In this document: one piece after another, positions 2,776 through 20,673 of the stretch
How positions within the stretch are numbered: the stretch's first letter is position 1
Layout of the letters: each line of letters starts with the position of its first letter
Source of the DNA: Silvibacterium sp.
Lineage (GTDB): Bacteria > Acidobacteriota > Terriglobia > Terriglobales > Acidobacteriaceae
Direction: 5' to 3'
Assembly: GCA_030037215.1 (NCBI GenBank)
Contig: JASHRS010000111.1
Coordinates: 1 to 43,302 of the forward strand
Length of the DNA stretch: 43,302 nt
The notes under the pieces: generated by a model
Databases searched by the model: none
The model's input: the letters and a program-made list of their open reading frames with translations, nothing else
What the model was told of the DNA's origin: nothing
Position numbers and translations under genes: made by a program

Positions 2776-4212
2776 ATGCCTCAAGTATTTGCTGCCATAT
2801 TTCATCCGCCGACACTCGACAACCTTAAAAGCGTCCCCCCGGAGCGGCGTCTTCCGGAGATGAAAGTAGCGATCCAGCAGGCGTACGGGCAGCTTGCTGC
2901 TTATGCCAGCCGAATGGGTGCGACAAATCCCTTTTTTATTTTTCTTGCCCCGGAATACTACTTCGTGAAGAACTGCGTAGCTACCGGCTCAGGGCGCGGT
3001 GCCGGGGAGAAGTGGACGCTCTATACAGAGACTGAGAAAAATCAGATTTTTGAGGAATTGCGTGCGTTGAGCGGGAAGTACAAGCGGTTCCTGATTGCGC
3101 CGAGCACAATTTCGTGGTGCAAGCCGGCCAAGGCTCCTCAAGGAAACCTGACAAAGGACGGTTGGAATACCACGCCCATCTTTTACGAAGGCAAGCTGAA
3201 GCACGAATACGACAAGATTTTCGACGATGGAAATTTCAGTGGCAAGACAGCCGACGTTCGTTTCCAGCAAGGCAAGAAATCGCAACTCTTCACTGTGGAA
3301 TCGCTGAAGTTCGGCATTGAAGTGTGCGGCGATTTTGACCACGGCAACCTGGGTAAAGAGGCGCGTCCTGAGAGCCTCGATTTCGAACTGATGCTTTCTG
3401 CCCCCAATCCTCACAGCTTTGATTCGCACCAAATTGCAAAAGTTCCGGTGAAGAACGGCGGCTATTTTCTTCATGCCGATTGTGATGAGAAGAAGTCGGA
3501 GCGTTGTGGCGCCTGGTGTGTGCAACGCGGCTCCGGTTCGCACGGTGTCGCACTGCCGAATGAGCTTCTAGGCTATGCTCTCTTCGACCCGTGGACAGGT
3601 CAGATGCTGAAGGGAGACATGCTGGGGGTATCACTGTCGTCGGGAAGCATGCTGGCATTGAAGGCAGTGGTTGGACAGCAGAACGGCAATCTTCCGCAGC
3701 AGAATAACCCGCTACCACAGAGCAATTTGCGTTCCAGCGGTTCGTCATGGGTTTCAGGCGTGAAATTGCAGAGAACGAACAGCTTGCAGCAGATCGGGAT
3801 GTCAAGGCTGTCAACGAATCTCTCCCAGCCTGCGCAGCAAACGGCCTATGGCATGAGAATGGCGACAAACCCTGCCCAACCCTACCTGAACAGCACGGAC
3901 GGCAGCTTCAACGTCAAGGTGACTGTCACGTTGACCAGCGGCAACGCGGGGCTGGCAAACCAGCAGATCAGTTTTCGGGCAGGAAACGGCAGAGCGCGGG
4001 ATCTGGTGAAAACGACGAACATGCAGGGCGAAGCGGAGACAGTTTTTACCGGCAATCGAGCGCATCCCATGCAGATCAGCGCCAGCTTCAATGAAACTAC
4101 TGTCAGCTATGAAGCGAAGATTACGAGTTTGGGCGGAGGCAACGTGAGCAAGATTGGGCGGCTGCAGCCGGAGACAGTACTCGATATGTGGTCGTATTTC
4201 CTGCCGATTTGA
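2776..4212 (+). CDS. Nitrilase-superfamily hydrolase fused to a C-terminal bacterial Ig-like (Big_1-type) domain
   Basis: Residues 1-290 look like a carbon-nitrogen hydrolase domain. The Glu-Lys-Cys triad is visible as E60 in FLAPEYYF, K147 in KHEYDKIF and C184 in FGIEVCGDF. Members of this superfamily cleave or transfer amide and nitrile carbon-nitrogen bonds; the substrate cannot be read from sequence. Residues ~300-370 are a Gln/Asn/Ser-rich linker. Residues ~376-453 resemble an invasin-type Ig-like fold, with the pattern NQQISF...TTNMQGEAETVFT. There is no signal peptide. The start is supported by GGAGGG at 2763-2768, 7 bases before ATG. It diverges from tssK and lies just upstream of the tssB promoter. 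Location and architecture make it a candidate T6SS effector or accessory enzyme, but no immunity gene is obvious. Domain calls are by motif only. Confidence 0.75.
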   Translation: MPQVFAAIFHPPTLDNLKSVPPERRLPEMKVAIQQAYGQLAAYASRMGATNPFFIFLAPEYYFVKNCVATGSGRGAGEKWTLYTETEKNQIFEELRALSGKYKRFLIAPSTISWCKPAKAPQGNLTKDGWNTTPIFYEGKLKHEYDKIFDDGNFSGKTADVRFQQGKKSQLFTVESLKFGIEVCGDFDHGNLGKEARPESLDFELMLSAPNPHSFDSHQIAKVPVKNGGYFLHADCDEKKSERCGAWCVQRGSGSHGVALPNELLGYALFDPWTGQMLKGDMLGVSLSSGSMLALKAVVGQQNGNLPQQNNPLPQSNLRSSGSSWVSGVKLQRTNSLQQIGMSRLSTNLSQPAQQTAYGMRMATNPAQPYLNSTDGSFNVKVTVTLTSGNAGLANQQISFRAGNGRARDLVKTTNMQGEAETVFTGNRAHPMQISASFNETTVSYEAKITSLGGGNVSKIGRLQPETVLDMWSYFLPI

Positions 4213-15744: not shown

Positions 15745-18633
15745 ATGTGCGCACTCAAGCAAGACGAACGGCTTCTCAGCTTCTCCAGCCCTTTGGGCGA
15801 CAATGTGCTTCTGGCCGACCGGCTGACCGGCGTTGAGGGCATCTCAGAACTGTTTTTCTACAATGTCGACCTTCTGGCGACCGTCGGCACAAAGATCGAT
15901 CCGAAAAGCATCGTTGGCCAGAAAGTCAGCGTAAGCATTCTCGGTGACGACACGGGCACCGAGCGCTACATCAACGGTTATGTTGCCAGCTTTGAGATGA
16001 CGGGCGGCGATGCGGAGTTCAACAACTATCGCGCGCTCATCGTTCCCAGCATCTGGGTCCTTACTCTTAACGTGAACACGCGCGTCTTTCAAAACCAGAC
16101 GGTTACAGACGTGGTGAAGGCAGTGCTCGGCAACTATAAGATCAGCCCGGCAATCGAGACCTCCAACACGTACACGCCGATGGAGTACTGCACGCAGTAC
16201 CGCGAAACCGATTTCAACTTCATTTCGCGGCTGATGGAGCAGCACGGCATCCTGTACTACTTCAAGCACACGCAGAACGACCACACGATGACGCTGCAGG
16301 ACACGTCGACCAAGCTGAGCGCCTGCGCGATTCAGAACTCGTTCCGCTATGCGCCGGAGCCGGGAACTCACGAGGGTTTTTACGACTTTATCGTCGACAA
16401 GCTCTCTTCCAAGTCGACCATGGTGACCGGCAAGCACACCACCTGGGACTACAGCTTTATCAAATACAAGACGGTTCCCGATTCCTCGACTTCGGCCTTG
16501 ACGAAAGGTCCACTCGGTTCCAACCCCAACGAGCAATATGACTATGCCAACAGCGCTGCGGCCTACCTGAAAAAAGCGGCGTCGGACCCGACGATCGGCG
16601 ATCTGGCGACATTTTTTCTCAACATCCGCAGAGACAGCAACGACGCTACGACCCTCGTAGTTGAGGGCGAGGCAAACGCGATCCCCATGCAGGCCGGCTA
16701 CAGTTTCGACCTCACGGAGAATCCGCAAAGCACGTTGAACATTAAATATCTTTTGACGCGAGTCGAGATTGATGTTCAGCAACTGCCGAGCTACAGGACA
16801 CGATCACAGAACATTCCCGCACCGTTCAAGAACAACTTCACCGCGATACCTTTCTCGATTGTCTACCGGCCTCCGATCAAAACAAAAAAGCCGGTCGTCA
16901 GCGGCATGCACACAGGCCAGGTGGTAGTGCCGCAGGGCGAAGACTCCTTCATGGACAAGTATGGCCGCGTGTGCGTGCAGTTCTGGTGGGACCGGCTTCG
17001 CAAGCCAAACACCACGGACAATACTCTCTTGCGGGTTGCACAACAGTGGGCCGGCAATGGATGGGGAACCTATTTCTGGCCGCGTGTGAACGACGAGGTC
17101 CTGATCGACTTTATCGAGGGCGACCCCGATCAGCCGATCGTGGTCGGCTCGGTTTACAACGGCGTCAACATGCCGAAGTACGACCCGGCGGGGCAGTACA
17201 CGCTTTCCGGCATCCTCACGCGCAGCTCGAAAGACGGCGGCGAGGCCAATGCCAATGAGCTGCGCTTCGAAGACCTCAAAGGCAAAGAGCAGATCTACAT
17301 GAACGCGGAGCGCGATTACGATCTGCATGTCGAAAACAGCCATCACACACTCATCGGCGCCGAGCAGCATGAACAGATCGGCACCGACCACTATATGCAG
17401 ACCGCCGGAGACACTCATCTGCACATCGAGAAAAAACTGTATGAGCAGATCGATGACGAAGTTCATCAAACCTATGGCTCCAAACAGATCATCAGCATCA
17501 GCGCAGACCATAATGAGTCGATTGGCGGAAGCGCGGTGCAGAAGATCAGCACGAATTCAGACATCAATGTCGGCTCCAACCTTACGGAACAAATCGGCTC
17601 GAATTACTCGCTGAATGTCGGCATGAGTGAGAACCACAAGATCGGCATGTCGTACAACATCGATTCCGGCATGACGGTCAGCATCAAAGGTGGGATGACG
17701 ATAACGCTCGACGCTCCGCTGGGAGTGAGCCTCACATGCGGCGGCAACTTTGTGAATCTTACCCCCGCCGGCGTCATGATCCAAGGCATCTTGGTCAATA
17801 TCAACAGCGGAGGCGCGGCCATGAGCGCCCAGTCGGCGAGCACGCAGAGCCCGCAGTCGCCGTCTTCGCCCACGGCGCCAAAAGCCCCGAGCTTTCCCGG
17901 CGATGCGCCGCCGTCACAGGCAGCGACGAGCCAGGCAGGTCAGTCTGCGACATCTCCGAATATCACTACTTCGAACGCGGCATCCTCTTCTGCGACCGCA
18001 GCCGCAGGTGCGGCCACCCAGGCACAAGAGGCTGCGACCCAGGCACAACAAGCCGCACAGCAGACGGAACAGCAGGCGCAGCAGGCTGTGAACCAGGTTA
18101 CGCAGGAGGCGCGGCAGACGTATCAGCAGGCGAATCAGGCTGCGCAGCAGGCACAGCAGGCTGCGAACCAGGCCGTGGGTCAGGCGCAGCAGGCCGCACA
18201 ACAGGCAGCCCAACAAGCGCAGCAAGCGGCGCAACAGGCGTCGCAACAAGCCGCGCAAGCAGTACAGCAGGCACAGAAACAAGCCCAGCAGGTACAGCAA
18301 CAGGCCCAGCAGGCGGCGCAACAAGCGCAAACGGCGGCACAACAGGCTCAACAGCAGGCCCAGCAAGCCGCCCAGCAGGCGCAACAGGCCGCGAAGCAGG
18401 CCCAACAGCAAGGTCAGCAGGCCGCGCAACAAGCGCAACAGGCAGCACAGCAAGCGCAACAGCAGGCACAACAAGCCGCCCAGCAGGCGCAACAGGCGGC
18501 AAAGCAGGCCCAGCAGCAAGCGCAGCAGGCATCGCAGCAGGTGCAGCAGGCAGCCAAAGGAGCACAGCAGCAGGCCCAGCAAGCCGCACAGCAAGCACAA
18601 CAGTCCGCCCAGCAGGCGATGAAAGGAATCTAG
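15745..18633 (+). CDS. vgrG: T6SS spike protein VgrG (TssI) with a 210-residue Ala/Gln heptad tail
   Basis: VgrG trimers form the spike on the Hcp tube. Residues ~1-370 are the gp27-like base (RETDFNFISRLMEQHGILYYF is diagnostic). The OB fold follows around 388-470 (DKYGRVCVQFWWDR, WAGNGWGTYFWPRVNDEVLI, EGDPDQPIVVGSVYNG). A gp5-like beta-helix needle runs to about 690 with regular IGs and NVGs repeats, and 693-752 is a Ser/Pro/Ala linker. From residue 753 to the end (bases 18001-18630) the sequence is almost pure Ala and Gln with a few Lys, in an AxxAxxx heptad-like pattern. No enzymatic domain is visible in the extension. The PAAR gene follows after 3 bp. At 962 residues it is well above the ~650 of a plain VgrG. 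Confidence 0.95.
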   Translation: MCALKQDERLLSFSSPLGDNVLLADRLTGVEGISELFFYNVDLLATVGTKIDPKSIVGQKVSVSILGDDTGTERYINGYVASFEMTGGDAEFNNYRALIVPSIWVLTLNVNTRVFQNQTVTDVVKAVLGNYKISPAIETSNTYTPMEYCTQYRETDFNFISRLMEQHGILYYFKHTQNDHTMTLQDTSTKLSACAIQNSFRYAPEPGTHEGFYDFIVDKLSSKSTMVTGKHTTWDYSFIKYKTVPDSSTSALTKGPLGSNPNEQYDYANSAAAYLKKAASDPTIGDLATFFLNIRRDSNDATTLVVEGEANAIPMQAGYSFDLTENPQSTLNIKYLLTRVEIDVQQLPSYRTRSQNIPAPFKNNFTAIPFSIVYRPPIKTKKPVVSGMHTGQVVVPQGEDSFMDKYGRVCVQFWWDRLRKPNTTDNTLLRVAQQWAGNGWGTYFWPRVNDEVLIDFIEGDPDQPIVVGSVYNGVNMPKYDPAGQYTLSGILTRSSKDGGEANANELRFEDLKGKEQIYMNAERDYDLHVENSHHTLIGAEQHEQIGTDHYMQTAGDTHLHIEKKLYEQIDDEVHQTYGSKQIISISADHNESIGGSAVQKISTNSDINVGSNLTEQIGSNYSLNVGMSENHKIGMSYNIDSGMTVSIKGGMTITLDAPLGVSLTCGGNFVNLTPAGVMIQGILVNINSGGAAMSAQSASTQSPQSPSSPTAPKAPSFPGDAPPSQAATSQAGQSATSPNITTSNAASSSATAAAGAATQAQEAATQAQQAAQQTEQQAQQAVNQVTQEARQTYQQANQAAQQAQQAANQAVGQAQQAAQQAAQQAQQAAQQASQQAAQAVQQAQKQAQQVQQQAQQAAQQAQTAAQQAQQQAQQAAQQAQQAAKQAQQQGQQAAQQAQQAAQQAQQQAQQAAQQAQQAAKQAQQQAQQASQQVQQAAKGAQQQAQQAAQQAQQSAQQAMKGI
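18001..18630 (+). repeat. Ala/Gln-rich heptad repeat encoding the VgrG tail
   Basis: About 30 degenerate 21-bp units encode AQQAQQx-type heptads. Both Gln codons and several Ala codons are mixed irregularly, so the DNA units are not identical even where the protein is. The pattern predicts a long Ala-core coiled coil. Confidence 0.85.
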
Positions 18634-18636
18634 CTT

Positions 18637-19776
18637 ATGGGAATGCCTGCCTGCACCATTACCAGCCTGACGGCACACGGCGGAACGGTTATCGTCGGCT
18701 TTCCGCAGGTGCTGATCGGCTTTATGCCTGCGTCGCGCATCGGCGACATGCACGTTTGCCCCATGGTCACAGGCGTGGTGCCGCATGTCGGCGGCCCGTT
18801 CATCCTGGGTTCACCGACGGTCCTTGTCGGCTTTATGCCGCAATCGCGAGTGACGGACCAACTCACGTGCGTCGGACCTCCCGATGTTGCCGTGATGGGC
18901 GTAGAGACGGTGCTGGTGGGGATGTCAGGAGCAGGCGGCGCTGGAGGGGCAGCTGCAGGCGTCGCTGCCATGGGAGTAGCTGTTCCAGTCAATTCTTCTT
19001 CTGCGCCGGCCGGGACTCCGCAATCCGTCGTGCAATATGACGGCACGACGAACACATCCACGCAGGCGAGCAGCCTTCCGCCGATTACCCTCAGTCAGTT
19101 GGGATGGCCCGACCTGTCGCCGGAAAGCACAGCGACGTTCCAGAGCGTCGCGCCCGCCACGCTGCCGCAGGGAACACAACTTTTCGCCGCGGCCGATTCG
19201 CAGAGCGATGCCGTTCCAAATCTCTGGTCGACGGCGCCACCGGAAGCTGCTGATCCAGCCAAAGACGCAATGAAGGTTCTTACCGTGACTGATCCATCCG
19301 GGATGAAAGCGTGGGTCGGGCAAGCGGCGGCACAATATGCGCAGGACGCGCAACAGGCTGCGACCCAGGCACAGCAAGCCGCGCAACAAGCGGAGAAGCA
19401 GGCGCAGCAGGCTCTGGCCCAGGTACAGCAACAAGCGCAGCAAGCTGTTCAGCAAGCGCAGCAACAGGTGCAGCAGGCACAGACAGCAGTGAATCAGGCG
19501 ACAGCGCAGGGGAAGGCCGCTGCACAGCAGGCATTGAACCAGGCCAAGCAGCAGGAACAGCAGGTGCAGCAACAGGCACAACAGGCTGTCCAGCAGGCGC
19601 AAAAGCAGGCACAACAGGCGCAGCAGCAAGCACAACAGGCCGCAAAGCAGGCTCAGCAAACTGCTCAACAGGCGCAGCAACAGGCCGGTCAGGCGACGAA
19701 GCAGGCCTCGCAGGTGTGCACATCCGCGTCGGGCGCGGCCAGCCAGGCGATTCAGAGCTTTGCGAAAAAGGGCTGA
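18637..19776 (+). CDS. PAAR-domain spike-tip protein with a matching Ala/Gln heptad tail
   Basis: PAAR proteins form the metal-bound cone that sharpens the VgrG spike and recruits effectors. Residues 1-95 match a PAAR domain with two half repeats, MPASRIGDMHVCP and MPQSRVTDQLTC; H39, C41, H50 and C78 are plausible metal ligands. A Gly/Ala-rich hydrophobic stretch lies at ~92-117. It is followed by an unrecognised Ser/Thr/Pro region to ~228. Residues ~229-354 are an Ala/Gln heptad repeat of the same kind as the VgrG tail, ending in a short SASGAASQAIQSFAKKG segment. No toxin fold is visible. The gene starts 3 bp after vgrG stops. Confidence 0.88.
   Translation: MGMPACTITSLTAHGGTVIVGFPQVLIGFMPASRIGDMHVCPMVTGVVPHVGGPFILGSPTVLVGFMPQSRVTDQLTCVGPPDVAVMGVETVLVGMSGAGGAGGAAAGVAAMGVAVPVNSSSAPAGTPQSVVQYDGTTNTSTQASSLPPITLSQLGWPDLSPESTATFQSVAPATLPQGTQLFAAADSQSDAVPNLWSTAPPEAADPAKDAMKVLTVTDPSGMKAWVGQAAAQYAQDAQQAATQAQQAAQQAEKQAQQALAQVQQQAQQAVQQAQQQVQQAQTAVNQATAQGKAAAQQALNQAKQQEQQVQQQAQQAVQQAQKQAQQAQQQAQQAAKQAQQTAQQAQQQAGQATKQASQVCTSASGAASQAIQSFAKKG
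19321..19713 (+). repeat. Ala/Gln-rich heptad repeat encoding the PAAR-protein tail
   Basis: The repeat encodes AQQAQQA-type heptads closely resembling the tail of the preceding vgrG, again with mixed synonymous codons. It is roughly 130 residues, against about 210 in VgrG. Confidence 0.85.
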
Positions 19777-19779
19777 AAC

Positions 19780-20148
19780 ATGACAGAGACGCAAACCATT
19801 CCGCAGCCCCTTGCTGATCGCTACCTCACGGCCTTCACGGCGCTGGTGTCCAAAGGCCGCGACGCGACCGCTGCCGGCAGTTCTCAACAGGCCGAAGTAT
19901 GGAAGCAAAAGGTTCTACCGCTTCTTGAGCTTCGGCTTACAGCTGCTAAGTCTGCGTCAGCGCATTATGCAATCGGCGATGAACAGCCGCTCGTAATACA
20001 CGCGCGCCAATCGCTGTCCCTGGGGCGCGACATGGACGGCTATTCGCTGGATTTTGCCGGAGATGAGTTTGCCACTCAACTGAAACAGGCACAACAGCTT
20101 GTTGTGTTTGCAGCGTGGCATGTGTGCCAGTCTGCAGGAGCGGTCTGA
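19780..20148 (+). CDS. Unrecognised 122-residue protein between PAAR and Eag-type genes
   Basis: I do not recognise a family. The protein is soluble-looking and mostly helical at the N-terminus (ADRYLTAFTALVSKGRDA, WKQKVLPLLELRLTAAKSA), with a later segment HARQSLSLGRDMDGYSLDF and a hydrophobic end QLVVFAAWHVCQSAGAV. There is no signal peptide. It begins 3 bp after the PAAR stop, so it is almost certainly in the same transcript. Spike-linked small genes are often adaptors, chaperones or immunity proteins, but nothing in the sequence distinguishes these. Confidence 0.75.
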   Translation: MTETQTIPQPLADRYLTAFTALVSKGRDATAAGSSQQAEVWKQKVLPLLELRLTAAKSASAHYAIGDEQPLVIHARQSLSLGRDMDGYSLDFAGDEFATQLKQAQQLVVFAAWHVCQSAGAV

Positions 20149-20177: not shown

Positions 20178-20205
20178 GATCTATGAGCGCTGATCTATGA
20201 GTGCC
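20178..20205 (+). repeat. 14-bp tandem duplication of a start region creating a 5-codon mini-ORF
   Basis: Two copies of GATCTATGAGYGCY (20178-20191 and 20192-20205) each contain an ATG. The first ATG (20183) opens a 5-codon frame, MSADL, whose TGA at 20198-20200 overlaps the second ATG as ATGA. The second ATG (20197) starts the chaperone gene. Confidence 0.7.
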
Positions 20206-20673
20206 GATCCGGGACAATTCGCCAGCCAGACTACCGCCGCTCGCATCGGCCGCTGGATTATTCCCGCGATTCCTTTCGGGTGGGTGTGGATCCCGGATTT
20301 CGGCATCCAGAGAAGCGGGGAAAATGTGCCCCCGAGCAATGTGTATCTGAAAGAAGACGAGCTTTTGGCAGGGGACCTGGCGCTCTATATTCAGGCTCAG
20401 GTCACGATCATGAAGCGGACATTTCAGGAGCCGACGATCGCGGGACCAGCGCCGCTCGAGTATTCTGGCGCCACCGAAGCCGCGCTGCTCATGCTTAAGC
20501 ATCAGCCGATGAATGGAACGCAGGTCTTTCAAGTGCAGCACTATATCCGCGTGGGACGGTGGGTCGGCATCGCCACGCTGACGACCATCGAATCGGAGCT
20601 GCTGAAAGTCCGCAAGGACTTCGATCAATTTATGAAGCTGGTAAAGGTCGAGCCGGATGCGCCTGATTCATGA
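20197..20673 (+). CDS. DcrB/DUF1795-family protein, probable Eag-type T6SS effector chaperone
   Basis: The 158-residue protein resembles DUF1795 proteins, which in T6SS loci act as Eag chaperones that hold hydrophobic segments of PAAR-linked effectors until loading on VgrG. Visible family-like features are the IPFGWVWIPDF opening, a middle LYIQAQVTIMKRTFQEP helix, and the strand block TQVFQVQHYIRVGRWVGIATLTT followed by a C-terminal helix. There is no signal peptide, unlike the periplasmic DcrB lipoprotein. Its presence implies a client, and the Gly/Ala-rich hydrophobic stretch of the PAAR protein is the obvious candidate. Its stop codon abuts the convergent gene's stop in a TCATGA hexamer. 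Confidence 0.72.
   Translation: MSADPGQFASQTTAARIGRWIIPAIPFGWVWIPDFGIQRSGENVPPSNVYLKEDELLAGDLALYIQAQVTIMKRTFQEPTIAGPAPLEYSGATEAALLMLKHQPMNGTQVFQVQHYIRVGRWVGIATLTTIESELLKVRKDFDQFMKLVKVEPDAPDS

Follow-up and report, generated by a model that had tools for sequence, protein, structure and literature searches.

We analysed a 43,302-base contig of Silvibacterium sp. (GenBank assembly GCA_030037215.1, contig JASHRS010000111.1), the whole of which is referred to here as the window, and which belongs to a genome that is 89% complete. The window carries a cluster of the type VI secretion system (T6SS) with genes for TssK, TssB, TssC, Hcp, ImpE, TssA, a TssE-like gp25, TssF, TssG, a ClpV-like ATPase, VgrG and PAAR; a TssM-type gene of the same genome lies on a different contig. 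VgrG, which forms a trimer, and PAAR meet at the tip of the T6SS spike, and here the two adjacent proteins, VgrG with Tss genes around it in the window and PAAR as the only such protein found in the genome at its present completeness, each carry a long tail of alanine and glutamine (Table 1).

The head of VgrG matches PF05954 (1.8e-72), PF04717 (5.8e-13) and PF22178 (2.4e-28) in Pfam and TIGR03361 (3.5e-141) in NCBIfam, all above cut-offs, and is followed by a linker inside which tailless VgrG relatives end, shortly past a shared FPGD motif. The tail beyond this linker is 50% glutamine and 35% alanine, with glycines at residues 812 (18178-18180) and 890 (18412-18414), and the motif [KR]G[FI] forms the C-terminal end in all seven tailed VgrG proteins considered below (LPKGF at the related loci L020 and L030). 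The PAAR domain, which is 87 and 91% identical to those of two relatives, belongs to a protein with an array of 49% glutamine and 31% alanine; 8 of 11 tailed PAAR proteins finish with LPKG or LAKG and then one or two further residues. A preliminary description of this DNA had recognised Ala/Gln tails on both proteins, and they lie where it placed them (residues 752-958 and 229-350). It also had both proteins ending in these tails, but in PAAR a further 29 residues follow the array.

Table 1. Features of the vgrG-PAAR region (positions in the window; ORF, open reading frame; aa, amino acids)
Feature	Position	Strand	Basis or remark
VgrG ORF, 962 aa	15745-18633	+	
VgrG head, residues 1-691, GPD, OB and gp5-C domains	15745..17817	+	Pfam/NCBIfam
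VgrG Ser/Pro/Thr-rich linker, residues 692-751	17818..17997	+	comparison with relatives
VgrG Ala/Gln helix tail, residues 752-958	17998..18618	+	207 aa
PAAR ORF, 379 aa	18637-19776	+	
PAAR domain, residues 1-98	18637..18930	+	Pfam PF05488, 1.2e-14
Apparently degenerate copy of the PAAR-family NADase-fold domain, residues about 146-228	19072..19320	+	alignment with relatives
PAAR Ala/Gln helix array of VgrG-tail type, residues 229-350	19321..19686	+	122 aa
Last 29 residues of PAAR	19687..19773	+	resemble the PAAR ends of L028, which has no array, and of L023, whose array is short
122-aa companion protein, family of unknown function	19780..20148	+	downstream of PAAR; homologues in relatives
158-aa DcrB/DUF1795-like protein	20197..20673	+	weak Pfam DcrB match in one family member

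Periodicity and predicted structure of the tails

Fourier analysis of alanine was applied to 18 tails from the window and its relatives (7 VgrG, 11 PAAR), with 200 shuffles of each. The best period in the window is 3.605 residues for the VgrG tail and 3.615 for the PAAR array, with powers of 57.4 and 19.9 against shuffle maxima of 12.3 and 9.7. A single alanine stripe with a period of 3.585-3.625 is found in all 18 tails, every peak exceeding the maximum of its own shuffles. The heptad pattern that had been proposed for the tails is not borne out: the power at a period of 3.5 is only 1.5 (VgrG) and 4.0 (PAAR) in the window and 0.3-8.2 over the 18 tails, under the shuffle maximum in each. Judged by this periodicity, the tails are predicted to be straight helices of 18 residues in five turns, unlike left-handed heptad coils. 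The phase of the stripe is kept along each tail, with a spread over five segments of at most about 80 degrees (in the VgrG of L023). The alanine face spans about 140 degrees and holds nearly all of the larger hydrophobic residues, and alanine makes up a fraction of 0.5-0.9 of the residues within about 60 degrees of the stripe centre, as expected of an alanine-lined interface. Mean hydrophobicity is about 0, the hydrophobic moment 0.18-0.20 and the net charge +2 per tail.

The window's VgrG tail, modelled as a monomer with AlphaFold2 (AF2), is split at low confidence into three helices with breaks at glycines 812 and 890, which lends no support to a continuous VgrG fibre; a glycine stands at the first break in all seven VgrG tails and at the second in five of the seven. 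For the PAAR tail of the related locus L039 the model is a single helix (residues 275-419). Disordered tails, named in the preliminary description as an outcome that would refute its reading, were not seen.

Conservation and origin of the tails

The codons of the tails are mixed (CAG/CAA and all four GCN), and the pattern is therefore held at the protein level; long ORFs that cover the repeats in other frames and on the minus strand look like by-products of these codons. Conservation was compared with a null of phase-preserving shuffles, realigned each time (40 per tail type), which carries no model of shared ancestry. The VgrG tails have 85 invariant columns, compared to 35.4 ± 3.4 (maximum 43) under this null, and the PAAR tails 30, compared to 10.6 ± 2.4 (maximum 17), which indicates selection on single residues of the tails beyond the helical pattern. 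Identity among VgrG tails (0.735) is higher than among VgrG heads (0.664), and the codon difference at identical alanine and glutamine residues is 0.50 in the tails versus 0.41 in the heads. Tail lengths are narrowly distributed, at 204-218 residues in VgrG and 122-161 in PAAR.

The window's PAAR array aligns with VgrG tails without gaps over its 122 residues, with a mean z of 4.07 to the seven VgrG tails and 1.22 to the ten other PAAR tails (Mann-Whitney p 0.0097). All ten other PAAR tails are closer to PAAR than to VgrG tails, yet those of L032 and L034 also reach a mean z near 4 to VgrG. The window's array precedes a C-terminal stretch that the arrayless L028 has as well, and the other PAAR tails come after the conserved domain. 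With a VgrG-like array at a different insertion site, double tails have therefore come about by at least two routes. The possibility that the two tails of a genome had recently undergone gene conversion was rejected, as shared DNA 15-mers are no commoner within a genome than between genomes.

With 147-150 and 7 candidates evaluated in each genome, the searches with the VgrG tail were not exhaustive. They matched VgrG and PAAR in the window's genome, plus one match at an E-value of 0.6, and across 21 genomes 18 of the 21 matches lie in VgrG (7) or PAAR (11), an assignment based on position and the length of the frame. The remaining three are weak (2e-4 to 7e-4) and fall in proteins (L189, L190, L191) judged by eye to be OmpA-like lipoproteins, each having a short Ala/Gln helix close to its N-terminus. 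These results bear out the earlier view that alanine-faced tails of one kind sit on both spike-tip proteins, and tails on unrelated proteins, which would have spoken against it, were not seen at strong E-values among the candidates scored. Matches at 1e-5 occur in 7 of 396 Acidobacteriota genomes, including the window's own, and the best outside match is the VgrG of genome G151 (L087:9466-12453, minus strand), from another Acidobacteriota family, which has a long A/K/E/D/Q tail with a period of 3.62 and is accompanied by a tailless PAAR. A survey for VgrG matched 54 of the 396 genomes, from which 56 regions were taken (matches in G087, G099, G111, G412:C93, G278:C249 and G278:C234 were left out), and among 68 VgrG ORFs surveyed (56 from these regions, 7 from the distant loci L040-L054 and 5 others) an alanine-striped stretch was found in that of G151 alone. 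Motifs of the form HEMxHA, metallopeptidase-like by eye, were seen in C-terminal extensions of VgrG at L157, L159, L163, L164, L166 and L167 and of PAAR at L041-L044.

Distribution among relatives

Screening 84,980 species genomes with the PAAR heads yielded 35 loci, among them 20 close VgrG-PAAR pairs from Acidobacteriota (L020-L039), which together with the window make up the 21 loci of the tail tally; the 15 more distant loci (L040-L054) were left out, and PAAR loci L055-L077 stand outside it. The contig of L020 ends inside PAAR, and this locus was dropped from the PAAR and joint counts, leaving 20 decidable loci. A long VgrG tail occurs at 7 of the 21 (the window, L020, L022, L023, L024, L030 and L038) and a long PAAR tail at 11 of the 20. 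Both are found together at five loci (the window, L022, L024, L030 and L038), neither at eight (L021, L025, L026, L027, L028, L035, L036 and L037), and at L023 a long VgrG tail accompanies a PAAR array of about 17 residues. The other six have a PAAR tail only.

Tail pairing is thus not obligatory. The co-occurrence that the preliminary description asked after runs, at these loci, in one direction: a VgrG tail without any PAAR array was found at none of the six decidable loci (five of the six have a long PAAR tail, and all six an array when the short one of L023 is counted), but the PAAR tail often stands alone. The association of the two tails gives a Fisher p of 0.157, or 0.042 if L023 is counted as tailed, and is not significant on the tree, where PAAR changes the same way in 2.2 of 4 independent pairs on average and never the opposite way (p 0.25 or more). 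On a tree of VgrG heads the tails are patchily distributed, with at least five changes for the VgrG tail (four forced by starred branches) and five for the PAAR tail. Read on this tree, both tails have been gained or lost repeatedly, and inheritance of the tail vertically with the VgrG head is unsupported in view of the five VgrG-tail changes.

The NADase-fold region and neighbouring genes

In the relative L039, AF2 places a NADase fold behind the PAAR domain (residues about 141-270; block means of the predicted local distance difference test, 65-94), and the four best rows of a structure comparison (VIA) with this domain are Tne2, Rhs1-CT, Tse6 and Tse6. The Pfam TNT family matches 1 of 17 members of the PAAR family weakly (0.016) and gives sub-threshold matches in 5 of 14 genomes, three of them mapping to PAAR, but also in 3 of 14 control genomes; hhalign gives the region an E-value of 0.0074 yet a probability of 5%, and in the window's genome a search for Pfam TNT returned no match. 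The PAAR proteins of the relatives are predicted, from the model of L039, to carry a Tne2/Tse6-like NADase fold ahead of the tail. The aligned region in the window is shorter and diverged, with the array behind it, and appears to be a degenerate copy. The earlier statement that neither tail has a toxin domain holds for the tails themselves, but not for the relatives' predicted domain between PAAR and tail. The PAAR domain of the window begins at residue 1, without a transmembrane segment ahead of it, unlike Eag-dependent (prePAAR) effectors; the best 19-residue hydropathy mean, 1.44, lies behind it at residues 100-118. At L027, where VgrG is tailless, another C-terminal domain replaces the tail of PAAR (L027:6001-7122) and is restriction-nuclease-like by eye; the 260-aa ORF behind it (L027:7128-7910) could be an immunity gene.

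Homologues of the 122-aa companion lie directly 3' of PAAR at 17 of the 20 related loci. By eye, L037 has a diverged candidate; none was seen at L036, where the NADase-like region is largely gone. Searches of Pfam and the PDB gave no relative of note, and the companion may be an immunity protein for the NADase-fold domain. We also considered that the tail might be tied to this companion and rejected it, as the companion is present in tailless loci too. In the family of the 158-aa protein, 1 of 11 members matches Pfam DcrB (4e-4) and a sequence search of the PDB gave no relative; from its sequence it may be an Eag-type chaperone. Elsewhere in the window, a 478-aa ORF beside TssK (2776-4212) has a sub-threshold Big_1 (Ig-like) match at its end, and a 366-aa Pro/Ala-rich ORF (100-1200) has a hydrophobic segment towards its C-terminus and no match in family searches.

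Possible roles of the tails

The tails are probably added modules, structural or for docking, and not random repeats. Tentatively, we favour the view that the tails make up an alanine-faced helical bundle at the spike tip. Both tip proteins would carry folded, almost uncharged amphipathic alpha-helical modules, every helix having a straight alanine stripe and a glutamine face, and the alanine faces would pack together beside the tip: within each VgrG tail, where three helices would turn at the conserved glycines, among the three VgrG tails of the trimer, and with the PAAR tail where there is one. Such a bundle would most likely serve as a structural or docking module near the PAAR cap and, in relatives, the NADase-fold domain, and would be delivered along with the spike. 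The six loci at which a PAAR tail stands beside a tailless VgrG (L029, L031, L032, L033, L034 and L039) weigh most heavily against a bundle of VgrG with PAAR. A more specific version, in which three VgrG tails and one PAAR tail co-fold into a heteromeric, untwisted, alanine-cored bundle, a new and removable element of the tip that is uncharged so as to stay together in the acid soils where its hosts live and has a charged A/K/E/D counterpart in another acidobacterial family, seems to us unlikely, and its link to acid soils is speculation.

The same six loci fit the idea that the tails serve separately as docking handles for some third partner, be it an effector, one of the two companions (122 aa and 158 aa) or the membrane complex, with tail-tail contact unneeded: PAAR is taken to be present in one copy per spike, and a lone PAAR tail must therefore pack on something else. 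It also fits that at L027 this C-terminal slot is occupied by a different domain, with a 260-aa ORF downstream. However, the 122-aa and 158-aa proteins occur in tailless loci too and so are not tail-specific, and among the 147 candidates scored per genome in the 21 genomes such a tail was seen on no third protein; we regard such a handle as possible, though rather doubtful. The tails could also be weakly hydrophobic amphipathic helices lying on a membrane, that of the target cell or of the attacker's envelope, where they would assist the passage of the tip or an attached domain. A broad, straight alanine face with an even polar face would suit this, as would a flat surface at a period of 3.6, but the hydrophobicity, moment and charge given above are weak for lipid binding, making this improbable.

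Glutamine and alanine codon repeats expand readily, and the patchiness on the tree and the very short array of L023 might suggest that the arrays are functionless low-complexity expansions through slippage or recombination. Drifting repeats would not be expected to show residue-level conservation, to keep their lengths and ends or to have diverged synonymous codons, however, and VgrG and PAAR tail DNA is no more similar within a genome than between genomes, so that this explanation is already disfavoured and can be given very little weight. Just as little credence attaches to the VgrG tail being itself a delivered effector or a passive payload in a slot where other VgrGs have enzymes. In another Acidobacteriota genus the C-terminal slot of long VgrGs does hold HEMxHA domains (in six of the VgrG rows scanned; the motif suggests a metallopeptidase, as a guess), but the tail lacks catalytic-looking residues, and the same module is found on PAAR as well, once inside a domain.

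Where VgrG or PAAR is extended at the C-terminus, the extension is usually taken to be an enzyme or adaptor, and here one and the same non-enzymatic, apparently helical module is found on both. As the preliminary description anticipated, no T6SS spike with such tails is described in the titles or abstract openings of the open-access literature searched; should the tails prove to bundle or dock, they would add to the T6SS tip a component new to that literature. Close relatives provide natural presence/absence pairs, and the tails would be a naturally occurring example of an untwisted alanine helix of the 18-residue type.

Comparison with known systems

The designed three-helix bundle 4TQL, with its Leu-rich core, resembles the model of the VgrG tail in arrangement only, and homology is not claimed. 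Another comparison is with the alanine-zipper trimers, namely mutants of E. coli Lpp and Licanantase, the latter proposed to be an acid-stable trimer of long alanine-cored helices (PMC4137666). Long helices with alanine cores are common to both cases, and VgrG is also a trimer; however, the zippers are heptads with a period of 3.5 over about 56-80 residues, compared to a period of 3.6 over about 207-218 residues here. A similar length is found in honeybee silk, where four related proteins with alanine-rich helical regions of about 210 residues form a heterotetrameric rod of 243 Å (PMC12284834); this is an antiparallel, extracellular coiled coil of 24 heptads, made of proteins unrelated to VgrG and PAAR. 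A further alanine-rich comparison is offered by PMC4049302. Among secreted proteins, the XVIPCD of antibacterial type IV secretion system (T4SS) effectors in Xanthomonadales is a glutamine-rich C-terminal tail that docks to the secretion machine (PMC6536674); it is likened to the tails by description only, being a T4SS element that has different conserved motifs and a length of about 120 residues.

Within the T6SS, the NADase-type effectors Tne2, Tse6 and Rhs1-CT differ from the proteins described here, which have no transmembrane segment ahead of PAAR and a Q/A tail behind the domain; NADase activity is putative here, and the copy in the window appears degenerate. The nearest parallel is given by evolved (C-terminally extended) VgrG and PAAR proteins, which likewise carry extra C-terminal domains on both tip proteins in a variable slot, and the slot of the relatives similarly holds NADase-fold or other domains. 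The difference is that here the slot is filled by a long Ala/Gln helix and not an enzyme, and on both proteins at once in five of the 20 decidable loci.
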